In this document: positions 30,747-35,898 of the stretch, piece by piece
How positions within the stretch are numbered: the stretch's first letter is position 1
Layout: the number at the start of each line of letters is the position of its first letter
Assembly (NCBI GenBank): GCA_019636345.1
Contig: JAHBXQ010000002.1
Span: forward strand, 1-64,000
Length of the DNA stretch: 64,000 nucleotides
Direction of reading: 5' to 3'
From: Pirellulales bacterium
Lineage (GTDB): Bacteria > Planctomycetota > Planctomycetia > Pirellulales > Lacipirellulaceae
Translations under genes and position numbers: made by a program
The notes under the pieces: model-generated
Told to the model about the DNA's origin: nothing
Database searches by the model: none
The model's input: only the letters and a program-made list of their open reading frames with translations

Positions 30747-30906
30747 CCGTCCTCCAGATCGAACCCCAGGCAAGCGAGGGACGACGGGCAGGCGACCGAG
30801 TGCTGGTCTTGGCCCAGAATTCGCATAACGCCCGGGATGACGCCGAGTTCGCTCGCGGCGAACCGGCGGCGGCGAGCTTTTCGGGATCCTCACAAGCGTG
30901 CGGGCC

Positions 30907-31935
30907 ATGCGAACTTATCCTTGTCTTTGCGGGCAGACCCTGTTCTTCGAGAACCGCTTCTGCGGCTCCTGCGGCCGTACCGCCGGGTGGTGCGATGCCT
31001 GCCATCGGCTGACCGTTCCGACCGACGCGGGGCAATGCTCCTACGAGGATTGCCGGGCGAACCTCTCGCCGTGCGGCGACCGAATTGCCTACGACGTGTG
31101 CAACGGCTTCCTGGCAAATGAGCAGGCTCCCGATTCGTCTCTCTGCAGCAGTTGCCAACTGACGACCGACATTCCCGACGCCACGAATCCGACGGCGGTG
31201 GCGGCCTGGGCCCGGCTCGAAGCGGCCAAACGGCGGCTCTTGGACGAGCTGCGAACCATCGGCTATTCCGCCGAGCGGTTGTCCGCTGAGCCGCCGTTGC
31301 GGTTCCGGTTTCTTGCCGATACGCCGCGCGAACACGTCGTCACCGGCCACGCCGACGGGGTGATCACGGTCAATCTCGCGGAGACCGACCCCGTCAAGCG
31401 CGAAGTCGCCCGGCAGAGGTTCCGTGAACCGCAACGAACCCTCATCGGCCACATGCGGCACGAATTCGGGCACTTTTTTTGGATGCGCGAGGTCGAGCAG
31501 GCACCGGCCCTAGGCGCATTCTGCGAGGTCTTCGGCGACTTCGAGCGGCCGCCGTACGCCGAGGCGCTCGATCAGTATCACGAAAACGGCCCTCCCAAGG
31601 ACTGGCAGACCCGGTACATCAGTCGCTACGCCGCGGCTCACCCCTGGGAGGACTTTGCCGAGACGTTCGGCTTTTACCTCGACATGCGGGCTGTGCTCGA
31701 CACGCTCGCGTGGCAAATTCCGCACCTCGTCCCCTCGACCATGCAGAGCTTGGCGGCGGTTCTTTCCGCGTATCAGCGAGCAGGCGTGCTGCTGAACGAG
31801 GTCAACCGAACCATGGGCCTCTCGGATCTCGTCCCCGAAGTCGTGTCGCCGCCGGTCGTCGCGAAGCTCGATTTCGTCCACGGCTTGGTCCAGCAAGCGG
31901 CTGCAGCCGCCGGCGTCCGAGCCCTCGCCGGCTGA
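30907..31935 (+). CDS. Zinc-ribbon metallopeptidase-like protein
   Basis: A 342-residue protein with an N-terminal double zinc ribbon (CPCG-like CLCGQTLFFENRFCGSCG and WCDACHRL, about residues 5-40, then CSYEDC and CSSC) and a C-terminal gluzincin-like region with HEFGHFFW (about 180-187). The layout and the preceding RTLIGHMRHE fit the putative zinc-binding metallopeptidase family PF15887. Its substrates are unknown. The Glu of AETFGFYLDMRAVLDT further on may be the third metal ligand. The ATG at 30907 was preferred to one three codons upstream. Confidence 0.82.
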   Translation: MRTYPCLCGQTLFFENRFCGSCGRTAGWCDACHRLTVPTDAGQCSYEDCRANLSPCGDRIAYDVCNGFLANEQAPDSSLCSSCQLTTDIPDATNPTAVAAWARLEAAKRRLLDELRTIGYSAERLSAEPPLRFRFLADTPREHVVTGHADGVITVNLAETDPVKREVARQRFREPQRTLIGHMRHEFGHFFWMREVEQAPALGAFCEVFGDFERPPYAEALDQYHENGPPKDWQTRYISRYAAAHPWEDFAETFGFYLDMRAVLDTLAWQIPHLVPSTMQSLAAVLSAYQRAGVLLNEVNRTMGLSDLVPEVVSPPVVAKLDFVHGLVQQAAAAAGVRALAG

Positions 31936-32306
31936 ACTGTGCTGCGGCCCCGCCGAAGCCTCCGCGGATCAATGCGGGGATCTCGCCGTCCTCGGCCCGC
32001 GCATTCGCGCTGGTCGCGTTGTTCGCCATGCTCCGCGAGCGAGCATTCTTCCTCACAACCGGCAAAAGAGTCTCAAGCTGACTCCATCGACATTATCGCC
32101 TCGGGGATTTAGCGAATCTAGTGAAGGGGCGCCGCTAGCACGCTCGATACTGCTGATGACGCAACGAGTGTTAGCCGCCCAGTCGAGCGGGGCGAGCGTT
32201 CCGTCATCGCATCGGCGCCATCCCAATCCGTGTGAGGCGCGAGCGAGACGCTCGGACACCGACGCTGCGGCAAAACGTGTTTCCCTTTCTGTTAAGGAGC
32301 CTCCCG
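31936..32306. other. Intergenic leader of the Cys-rich protein gene
   Basis: No gene was found. The last bases hold a strong AAGGAG ribosome binding site at about 32294-32299, eight bases before the start codon of the Cys-rich protein. I could not assign a promoter with confidence. Confidence 0.4.
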
Positions 32307-32819
32307 ATGGTCCGTTCCTCCCTGTTGTCGCTGGCCCTCGCGCTGGCCTTTGCCGGGAACGCAAATGCGTTCTTTGGCTGCGGCTGTGCCAGCGAGCCCG
32401 CCTGCGGCTGCGCGATGGCTTGCGAGCCGAGCTGCGGCTGTGCGATGTCGTGTTGTGATCCCTGCTGCGACTGCTGCGCTCCCAAGTGCGGCTTGTTCGC
32501 CAAGATGAAGGCCCGCCGGGCCGCCCGCAAGGCGTGCTGCTGCGAGCCGTGCTGCGGTTGCGAAGTTTCGTGCGGTTGCGCCGCTGAGCCCTCGTGCGGT
32601 TGTGCCGCCGAGCCGAGCTGCGGTTGCGCCGACTCGTGCTGCGAGCCGAGCTGCGGTTGCTGTGACTCGTGCTGCGATTGCTGCGCCCCCAAGTGCTGCT
32701 TGTTCGCCAAGCTGAAGGCCCGTCGGGCCGCTCGCAAGGCTTGCTGCTGCTGCGAAGTCAGCTGCGGTTGCGAAGCCTCGTGCGGTTGCGCCGTCGAGCC
32801 CTCGTGCGGCTGCAACTGA
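32307..32819 (+). CDS. Secreted cysteine-rich repeat protein
   Basis: A 170-residue protein with a clean signal peptide (about 1-21, cleavage after ANA) and then about 47 cysteines among some 149 mature residues. The motif S/A-C-G-C recurs (EPSCGC, EVSCGC), mixed with CCDPCCDCC clusters. The block CCAPKC.LFAK.KARRAARKACCC occurs twice, about 80 residues apart, so the gene arose by internal duplication. Strong ribosome binding site AAGGAG. A strong terminator follows, so it is a single-gene unit. Nothing else in the window resembles it. Likely roles are metal binding or disulfide-linked cell-surface structure; both are inference. Confidence 0.85.
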   Translation: MVRSSLLSLALALAFAGNANAFFGCGCASEPACGCAMACEPSCGCAMSCCDPCCDCCAPKCGLFAKMKARRAARKACCCEPCCGCEVSCGCAAEPSCGCAAEPSCGCADSCCEPSCGCCDSCCDCCAPKCCLFAKLKARRAARKACCCCEVSCGCEASCGCAVEPSCGCN

Positions 32820-32881
32820 GCCCGAGCGAAACTCGTCGCCAACGCGGCTGGCTCAGGCGACGAACGACGATTGTGACGATC

Positions 32882-32924
32882 AAGACGGCCTCGCTGCATC
32901 ATCAGCGCGAGGCCGTCTTTTTTT
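32882..32924 (+). terminator. Strong rho-independent terminator of the Cys-rich gene
   Basis: A 12-bp perfect GC-rich stem (AGACGGCCTCGC with GCGAGGCCGTCT) closes over a 12-base loop and ends in a run of seven T. Confidence 0.92.
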
Positions 32925-33069
32925 GCGCGCCGGAAGCGGTTTTGAGCGCGGCCATTTTTTTCGTTGGACGCCGGCTCCCGGGCGCGGGACAATTCCTCCT
33001 GTCGAAACCGGCCGACTCCCCAACGGCCCGGATACGCAACCGCCTGTCGCCGAACGAGGAGGCGAGACG

Positions 33070-34686
33070 ATGCCGTCGCTCACCGAAACCGCAGACCTTC
33101 GCATTCGACGGCAGACGAGGATCCGGCGATTCCTCTCCTTCCTCGCTGCGTGCGTCGCCAATCTTGTCCTTGTTACGGCTCACGCCGCACCCGGCGACGG
33201 CGGCGGGCCGTCGAACCAAAGCTCGCTAGACGCCGGCGGGGGTGCGGCAAGCGCCGATTTCGATTCGCTGATCGAGTTGATCACCTCCACCGTCCAACGC
33301 GACACGTGGATGGAGAACGGCACCGGCGAGGGCGAGATCCAAGCGTTTCCCAATGGCGTCTACATCGACGCGGCCGGGGCCCTGCGCCTCGATCGAGGCG
33401 AGCGGCGCAACGACCAGCTTGAACGCGTGGCCGGTCGAGCCGCAACCGCACGCAGCATCGCCGAAGAAAGACCCTTGACGCGGCCGGATGAGGACGACCC
33501 CGCCGCTGCCGCGCGACGCCCCAGCGAGCTCCGCTTCGTGTCGCTGCCGCGTTTGGAGCGCGCGATCGCTGCCCGGCAAGCTCGCGGCCAGCCGCTCGAT
33601 CCGGCGATGCTGACGCTCGCCGGTTTGCGGCGCATCGCTTACATCGTCGTCGAGCCCGAGTCCGGAGACCTCCTGCTCGCCGGGCCGGCGGGGGATTGGC
33701 GCGTCGAACGGGGCGCCCTCGTCGCCGCGGACACGGCTCGGCCCCTCGTGCGGCTGGACGATTTGCTCACGCTCCTGCGACGAAACCATCTCGAGGGAGC
33801 GAAGGCGTTTGGTTGCTCGATTGTTCCCCGCCAGGAAGCTCTCGCTGCGACGCAGGATTTCCTGGCTCGCACGTCGACGGCGCCGCTCCCGGCGGGCGGG
33901 CGTGGGGAGTGGCTTCGCGGGCTCCGCGATGCGCTGGGCGAGCAGGACGTCGAGTTCTACAGCATCGAGGCCTCGACCCGCGTCGCCCGGCTGCTGCTGG
34001 CGGCCGATTACCACATGAAGCTCGTCGGCATGGGGCTTGCGCAGGGGGTTCCCGGAGTTCCCAGCTACCTGTCGACCGTGCAACTGGGCCCCGACGGGCG
34101 GCCGCCCGCGATGACCGTCATCCGGTGGTGGTTCTCGATGCCGGCTTGCCAGGTCGCGACGACGCCCGACCGCACCGCCTACGCGCTCCCTGAACAGTGC
34201 GTCGAGGTGCTAAGCGAGAACGAACTGTTGGCCGCCCGCGGCGAGCGGATCCACACGGGCATTTCCGACGACCTGACCGGCGGGTTCGCGCGGGCGTTTA
34301 CGCGAGAGTTCGCGGCGCTTGCCGCCAAGTACCCCGTCTACGCCGAGATGGAGCGGGTATTTGAACTCGCCTTGGCGCTGGCGGTCGTCGAGCGCGAGGG
34401 GCTGCTCGTCCGCTCGGGCTGGACGCCGGGTTTGCTGGCCGACCCCGAGCGGTTGCGCTTGCCGCGGGTGACGACGCCTCGATCGGTCGAGACGGTCGTC
34501 AATCATCGCACGATCGCCCGGCGCCACGTGATTGCCGGAGTGAGCGGCGGAGTGTGGGTGAACCCCGTCACTCAAGCGTCGATCGTCCCGGCTCCCGCGG
34601 GCGAGGCGACGGCGCTCGCGGAGAAGGCGACTTCGCGCATGCAGCCCGACGTCGTCGGCGACGAACAGTCGTGGTGGTGGGATTAA
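33070..34686 (+). CDS. Exported protein, DUF1598-like (planctomycete family)
   Basis: A 538-residue protein. A signal sequence is present but far from the N-terminus: a basic stretch RIRRQTRIRRF is followed by a hydrophobic core (about 20-38, ending AHAAPG). The main part has YIDAAGALRLD, LRRIAYIVVEPESGDLLLAGPAGDW and DYHMKLVGMGLAQGVPGVPSYL, which I associate from memory with DUF1598, a family known mainly from planctomycetes. Function unknown. The ATG at 33070 follows GAGGAGG at good spacing. It is preceded by the terminator of the Cys-rich gene, so it has its own promoter. Confidence 0.78.
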   Translation: MPSLTETADLRIRRQTRIRRFLSFLAACVANLVLVTAHAAPGDGGGPSNQSSLDAGGGAASADFDSLIELITSTVQRDTWMENGTGEGEIQAFPNGVYIDAAGALRLDRGERRNDQLERVAGRAATARSIAEERPLTRPDEDDPAAAARRPSELRFVSLPRLERAIAARQARGQPLDPAMLTLAGLRRIAYIVVEPESGDLLLAGPAGDWRVERGALVAADTARPLVRLDDLLTLLRRNHLEGAKAFGCSIVPRQEALAATQDFLARTSTAPLPAGGRGEWLRGLRDALGEQDVEFYSIEASTRVARLLLAADYHMKLVGMGLAQGVPGVPSYLSTVQLGPDGRPPAMTVIRWWFSMPACQVATTPDRTAYALPEQCVEVLSENELLAARGERIHTGISDDLTGGFARAFTREFAALAAKYPVYAEMERVFELALALAVVEREGLLVRSGWTPGLLADPERLRLPRVTTPRSVETVVNHRTIARRHVIAGVSGGVWVNPVTQASIVPAPAGEATALAEKATSRMQPDVVGDEQSWWWD

Positions 34687-35349
34687 CCCAATACGCCCTG
34701 CGCGACGAGGACTCGCCGCGCCTGCATCACAAGCCCGAGCGCGAACAATCGCTTACGGCGCTTGTCAACTCCCTGCGAGATGTGATTTGGACGGCGTTTG
34801 CCGCAACTGAAGTGCGAATTGGGCGGCCGAATCTCCGCAAAATCGCGGCGTTTTTTTCGCGATTCTAGAGAAGCTAGGCAAGTTCGCGCGCGATTGTTTG
34901 CCGCTGAACTCACACTGTCCAGTTGTTGTAACCCGCAGAAATCACGCCACTTGCGATCATCAAGCCAACGAGCGTCGTCATGGCGCCGACCCGTTGCGGC
35001 GCTTTGCGGCATGTGAGTTGCGGAACTCTCCGGCCCCTTGCGACTCGCGATCATGCGGCTACATTCGCACCGAGTTCGCGGGAATCGTCTCGCGAACCAA
35101 GACCCCGTGCGACGGCTCGCACGGCAACGCCTGAGACGCGTTCCCTCCGTCAACTTTCCTTCCTGACCTGACAGAAGCTCACGGACGATCTTGGCCTCGC
35201 CTGCAACTCAGGCTGACCCGGGCCGAGCGACGATCGATTCTGTCTCACCTTTCGCGAACACACGCCGGCCGCCATGGCGGCACGAATTGTCTCAGGCCGG
35301 TCGCAACCCCTCGCCGGCGCGTGTAAGCACTGCACAAGGAGTTTGTGGA
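34687..35349. other. Long intergenic region, no gene recognised
   Basis: About 660 bases with lower GC than the flanks. AATCGCG at 34841-34847 can pair with CGCGATT at 34858-34864 around a T-rich loop, a possible weak terminator for the upstream gene. Frames here look random. The final bases hold AAGGAG, the ribosome binding site of the next gene. A structured RNA is not excluded. Confidence 0.35.
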
Positions 35350-35898
35350 ATGGTTCAGTTTTTGGCTGCGTTGACCATGGTCGTGGCTGTGGCGTCCGAC
35401 TCTCCAAAATTCGTCGGGGCGTCGCATTCCTCCGGCAAACTGCAATGGATCAGCGACTACGGCCAGGCGCTGGAAGCGACCCGCCGCGACGAGCGGCCGC
35501 TGTTGGTGGTTCTTGAATCGCCCCGCGACGAGGAGAAGGCGCTCGACGACGACGTGCTCGCCGCGGCGAGCGACAAGCTGCTTTCCAAGTACGACCTGTG
35601 TCGCGTCGATGCGACGACTTCGTACGGCAAGCAGGTCGCCGAGTCGTTCCGCGCCAAGCAACTGCCCCACGTGGCGATCATCGACAAGAGCGGATCGGTC
35701 GTGCTGCACAAGCAAGCCGGTCAGCCGTCCGCCGCGGAATTCAAGTCGGCGCTCGAGAAGCATCAGCTTGGACTTCGCTCCGCCGCCGTGGTGCAGACGA
35801 GCTATTTCCGCGGCGACGGGGCGCTGCAGCCCTCGTCGGCCGTGAACAGCCCCGGTTATTGCCCCTCGTGCCAACGCGCAGCGATGGGCCTGCAGTAG
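35350..35898 (+). CDS. Exported thioredoxin-fold protein without the CxxC site
   Basis: A 182-residue protein. A short hydrophobic N-terminus (about 3-16) suggests export. The thioredoxin fold is suggested by RPLLVVLESPRDEEKALDD (first strand and helix), LCRVDATTSYGKQVAESF and the cis-proline strand QLPHVAIIDKSGSVV. Where thioredoxins have WCxxC there is ESPRDEEK, so no redox site exists there. A CPSC pair does occur near the C-terminus (about residues 174-177) outside the fold. The ribosome binding site is AAGGAG. A strong terminator follows, so it is a single-gene unit. Function unknown. Confidence 0.75.
   Translation: MVQFLAALTMVVAVASDSPKFVGASHSSGKLQWISDYGQALEATRRDERPLLVVLESPRDEEKALDDDVLAAASDKLLSKYDLCRVDATTSYGKQVAESFRAKQLPHVAIIDKSGSVVLHKQAGQPSAAEFKSALEKHQLGLRSAAVVQTSYFRGDGALQPSSAVNSPGYCPSCQRAAMGLQ

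Follow-up and report, generated by a model that had tools for sequence, protein, structure and literature searches.

An exported cysteine-rich protein family of the Pirellulales, with a folded RNA leader and a DUF1598 neighbour, as a candidate envelope component

Known cysteine-rich systems and the locus

Planctomycete walls are described as protein-rich and as containing disulfides, and a disulfide-bonded protein sacculus is cited, in the wall literature (PMC2754498). Cysteine-rich proteins with YTV domains (PF07639) have been reported in planctomycete wall preparations, namely in those of Rhodopirellula and Gemmataceae (PMC8567305). In this work we analysed a stretch of 64 kb from a Pirellulales bacterium (the window), which encodes a protein that resembles the YTV proteins in being secreted, cysteine-rich and lineage-restricted, but that has no PF07639 match; the YTV genes of the host lie at three separate loci elsewhere. 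OmcA and OmcB of the chlamydiae, which belong to the same superphylum as the planctomycetes, are disulfide-linked envelope proteins; the window protein differs from them in architecture and has no Pfam match. With about one-third Cys and C-x-P-S/T-C repeats it recalls the hair keratin-associated proteins (Keratin_B2, Keratin_B2_2), whereas its family is bacterial and exported and has cationic helices. Keratin_B2_2 (PF13885) matches one of 20 family members (E 4e-5) and not the window protein, and this likeness is most likely a convergence. Metallothioneins share with the window protein CC and CxC clusters and small spacers, but the window protein has a signal peptide, is about three times longer than typical metallothioneins, and matches none of their profiles.

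No Pfam family was found for the window protein at E up to 1, metallothioneins included, and no NCBIfam model fits it; the 20 members compared with Pfam at 0.1 gave no YTV, metallothionein or chlamydial Cys-rich envelope family. The initial annotation held that the protein resembles neither metallothioneins nor any known cell-wall protein. This is correct at the level of Pfam and NCBIfam matches, but goes too far otherwise, as Cys-rich YTV wall proteins are known (PMC8567305), one member matches Keratin_B2_2, and a metallothionein-like reading keeps a minority standing. Judged by its sequences, the family is real and conserved, and it has no Pfam or NCBIfam model. We regard it as a variant of the Cys-rich envelope proteins, in which the new elements are a single-target leader RNA and a link with DUF1598. 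The features of the locus are summarized in Table 1.

Table 1. Features of the cysteine-rich protein locus (window coordinates)
Feature	Coordinates	Strand	Evidence
Promoter-like motif TGAAG-N15-GCTCGATA	32122..32149	+	Recurrence of TNAAG-N15-NNNCGATA at family loci
Hairpin RNA leader; core 32189-32257 (covariance model R1)	32174..32271	+	R1 match 60.9 bits, covariation
Shine-Dalgarno AAGGAG, 7 nt before ATG	32294..32299	+	GGAG precedes ATG in 20/20 aligned loci
Secreted Cys-rich protein, 170 aa, 47 Cys	32307..32819	+	Translated ORF, composition count, selected reading frame
Signal peptide, 21 aa, ANA cleavage motif (MVRSSLLSLALALAFAGNANA)	32307..32369	+	Sequence
Cationic linker 1, GLFAKMKARRAARKA	32490..32534	+	Linker comparison; predicted helix residues 63-76, low-confidence model
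Cationic linker 2, LFAKLKARRAARKA	32700..32741	+	Linker comparison; predicted helix residues 130-144, low-confidence model
Intrinsic terminator	32882..32924	+	Fold; script-found hairpin and T-run in relatives
DUF1598 protein, 538 aa, hydrophobic N-terminus, C-terminal WWWD	33070..34686	+	PF07643, E 7e-23

The protein and its family

As the initial annotation had stated, the gene stands alone and encodes a secreted protein, about one-third of whose mature part is cysteine: 47 of 149 residues (31.5%), the others including 24 Ala, 13 Gly, 12 Ser, 10 Glu and 10 Pro. The SCGC and CCDCC motifs it had listed occur eight times and twice, respectively, and both of its APKC...ARRAARKACCC-type blocks were located (APKCGLFAKMKARRAARKACCC and APKCCLFAKLKARRAARKACCC). 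The strong ribosome binding site and the terminator were likewise found, and these expression signals are also present in relatives. The terminator consists of a 13-bp G+C-rich hairpin and a T7 run that ends at 32924, and a 58-nt stretch folds at -32.0 kcal/mol; it was overlooked by a simple terminator scanner and revealed by the fold computation. A script found a hairpin and T-run in 19 of 20 relatives, 79-141 nt past the stop codon. The predicted model of the protein (mean pLDDT 49) is disordered except for the signal peptide and the linkers. The host genome carries a single copy of the gene.

In nine pairs of relatives compared codon by codon, third positions hold 29-57 differences, compared with 8-28 for the first two positions; synonymous codon differences mostly outnumber non-synonymous ones; one close pair shows 9, 11 and 36 differences at positions 1, 2 and 3. 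This concentration at third codon positions indicates that the frame is translated and under selection. The Q-rich antisense frame that overlaps the gene (32204-32992) is a mirror of its Cys codons.

The initial annotation had proposed a survey of planctomycete homologues, with lack of conservation as one finding that would speak against its reading. The survey found conservation: a profile (A1) built from 20 aligned members matches, at E 0.001, in 199 of the 296 genomes of the order, and a search with the window protein alone matches in 34 of 59 related genomes. Outside the order, just four genomes of the class sample pass E 1e-8 with the family profile. Six named loci, among them one of Bythopirellula polymerisocia, came from the single-protein search; the membership of this species suggests that the window's family is Lacipirellulaceae and the order Pirellulales. 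Because the composition of the protein is biased, weak profile matches alone are no proof, and the proteins of about 40 loci were therefore read individually. Nearly all of them have the same layout, in which a signal peptide is followed by three Cys pads separated by two cationic linkers; it is shared by the window protein, the 20 aligned relatives and members from other families of the order. A hydrophobic N-terminus with an AxA-like motif is present in all 20 aligned members. Conserved residues are mostly C, E, P, G and A, while the number and length of the pads vary. The Cys count of the 20 members lies between 34 and 56; 12 members have an even number and eight an odd one, which disfavours a closed set of internal disulfides and thus one fixed disulfide-closed fold.

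The two linkers of one protein share on average 66% identity (17 proteins with two scored linkers), whereas in the same 17 proteins the same linker of two species shares 39%, and unlike linkers of two species 38%. This higher identity within a protein points to an old duplication whose copies were homogenized within lineages. The proposal that the protein was built by internal duplication thus stands as regards the internal repeat, but it holds only for a deep ancestor, as the order shares the two-linker layout; the recent event is the homogenization of the copies. Three larger, separate relatives (L060, L061 and L062) have four linkers and 77-93 Cys, and share a Cys-free C-terminal tail, ...MADPNA.(V/I)GRQRDVVR.(S/A)F, with the motif GRQRDVVR.

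Leader RNA, promoter-like motif and neighbouring genes

The initial annotation mentions neither the leader RNA nor the promoter-like motif nor the downstream DUF1598 gene. A long hairpin upstream of the Cys-rich gene is common to relatives. Across 16 leader sequences, pairing at the 15 core pairs reaches 97.9%, and double changes number 13 versus 3.7 in shuffles. On 21 distinct sequences in a model-fitted alignment, which for that reason leans toward the structure, 98.4% of cells are paired, seven pairs are changed on both sides, and 25 cells are changed on both sides versus 6.0 in shuffles (reached in none of 500); slid structures on these sequences are paired at 58% at most. The outer flanks of the leader fold at a mean of -20.9 kcal/mol with their own partner and at -15.8 when swapped between species. 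As the thermodynamic z-scores of single leader sequences are only modest, the case for a leader RNA rests on covariation. Whole-genome searches with R1 were positive, with a single match each, in 22 of 43 genomes belonging to the window's family: in 21 the match immediately precedes the Cys-rich gene, and the remaining one is marginal (E 0.04). Between the end of the core and the Shine-Dalgarno site there are 39-50 nt. Several genera of the window's family gave no R1 match, and neither did the loci examined in other families; what look like diverged hairpins can be seen there by eye. A permissive Rfam search with five leader-bearing loci returned chance matches only, none at gathering score. 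A folded leader is conserved, and occurs almost only upstream of the Cys-rich gene. A DNA operator is disfavoured by two features that favour a hairpin acting as RNA: columns 12/65 form a U-G pair in 19 of 21 sequences, and the loop varies in length. For this RNA we infer a regulatory function.

At most family loci, other families of the order included, the motif TNAAG-N15-NNNCGATA is placed some 140-200 nt upstream of the start codon, and a loose pattern has two matches in the window versus 0.25 expected. Its -10 half resembles that of sigma-28 promoters (GCCGATAA), but with about 2 nt more spacing; for this reason no sigma factor was assigned. The motif was rejected as the mark of a regulon, since the strict pattern occurs one to four times in most family genomes and, beyond the promoters of Cys genes, barely exceeds a reversed-pattern control. 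It also precedes a few other genes, outer-membrane-like genes and an unannotated RNA-like transcript among them, and could belong to a general class of promoter. From about position 1500 of loci L137 and L138 (strand as matched), the promoter motif is followed by a conserved non-coding stretch that closes with a terminator-like hairpin (TTCGAGGGTTCTTGCCCCGGCGAGCAGGGACCCTC, T-run). This stretch has no Rfam match, and is probably a small RNA near another DUF1598 gene.

A same-strand DUF1598 gene lies within 3 kb downstream of the Cys-rich gene in 19 of the 41 genomes that have the latter, mostly with 0.9-1.7 kb to the domain; the chance of such a neighbour is about 0.0008 (~0.001) per genome, and as the 41 genomes are related, the 1e-47 given by the script for this pairing should not be read as a true probability. 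Several families retain the pair (L052-L055, L058 and L064; G046, G047 and G052; and the window), and the remaining neighbours differ among these loci. The terminator between the two genes implies that they do not form one simple operon. All 59 related genomes have one to four DUF1598 genes; the 14 controls have none. Some genomes that lack the adjacent gene, those of genus g7, have two copies versus the usual three, as if the copy beside the Cys-rich gene had been lost. Nearly all full-length DUF1598 relatives have an invariant Cys and the C-terminal WWWD motif. For the AlphaFold model of the DUF1598 protein (mean pLDDT 77) there was no PDB fold match: Foldseek gave nothing below E 0.3, and VIA-align no Z above 3.7. 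No fold was therefore assigned, which is no evidence of a new one, and the papers searched included none on DUF1598. Two other nearby genes are not conserved neighbours: a zinc-ribbon and Peptidase_Mx metallopeptidase gene just upstream of the Cys-rich gene (30898-31935), and, 2.5 kb from it, a gene for an exported-looking thioredoxin-fold protein (Thioredoxin_7, 35341-35895) with no CXXC at the active-site position.

A possible envelope matrix and its alternatives

We lean, by a modest preference, towards a structural role: the protein would be exported to the cell envelope and form a disulfide-cross-linked matrix there; its location, cross-linking and anchoring, and the roles of the leader and of DUF1598, are what we infer. 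In this model, removal of the signal peptide would leave three cysteine pads (EPSCGC / SCCEP-type repeats) and, connecting them, two cationic amphipathic helices. Disulfides within and between molecules would link the pads into an insoluble matrix, as in the hair keratin-associated proteins, and the helices would tether this matrix to a negatively charged partner, be it membrane, peptidoglycan or polysaccharide. The dedicated promoter-like motif and the folded RNA leader would set expression of the gene, and the secreted DUF1598 protein encoded next door would probably take part in the same assembly.

It is the composition and layout, rather than catalytic residues, that are conserved order-wide, and this, together with export and apparently strong expression signals, argues for a bulk structural role; the conservation of C, E, P, G and A with variable pads looks like the pattern of a matrix and not of an active site. 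Disulfide cross-linking would be the natural fate of 47 exported cysteines. Several points go against the matrix reading. Peptidoglycan is present in planctomycetes (PMC4432640), which makes a protein wall unnecessary for shape. In addition, neither DsbB nor VKOR could be recognised in the genome that carries the window (95.9% complete), which leaves the disulfide-forming enzyme there without a candidate; VKOR is present in 26 of 39 relatives. A search for proteomic evidence of the Cys-rich protein found none.

The main rival of the matrix reading is extracytoplasmic metal binding by a secreted metallothionein-like protein, whose CGC and CC pads would bind thiophilic metals (copper, zinc, cadmium, silver) outside the cytoplasm. 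The density and spacing of the cysteines and the small spacer residues would suit metal thiolate clusters, and a host genome with no recognisable oxidising pathway would suit them as well. However, the protein is exported, the number of cysteines varies, no metallothionein profile matches either the window protein or the 20 members, and it is DUF1598 that is conserved next to the gene, with neither a metal transporter nor a metal regulator noted among the recurring neighbours; we therefore hold this reading to be possible but rather unlikely. A surface or extracellular protein acting in adhesion or biofilms, or a precursor from whose linkers cationic peptides are secreted, would account for export, for the cationic amphipathic linkers and for the fast change of repeat number; it appears improbable, as linkers and pads invariably occur together and no protease or modification enzyme recurs next to the gene. 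A functionless low-complexity frame or antisense artefact, which the repetitive sequence and the long overlapping antisense frame might suggest, is contradicted by the selected codon pattern, the order-wide conservation and the conserved leader RNA, and has a negligible chance of being correct.

The matrix reading can be extended to a full analogue of the keratin-associated proteins, an order-wide disulfide envelope matrix assisted by DUF1598, with a single-target leader that would sense cysteine, redox or envelope state; this extension is speculative and we grant it a minor probability. The high cystine of planctomycete envelopes is an old question, which goes back to wall work of 1984-86 as cited in two later papers (PMC2754498, PMC8567305). 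The Cys-rich family would be a compact candidate for the source of this cystine, one that comes with its own putative regulatory RNA and with a candidate partner of unknown function, DUF1598, for which the pairing with the Cys-rich gene would be a first functional link.
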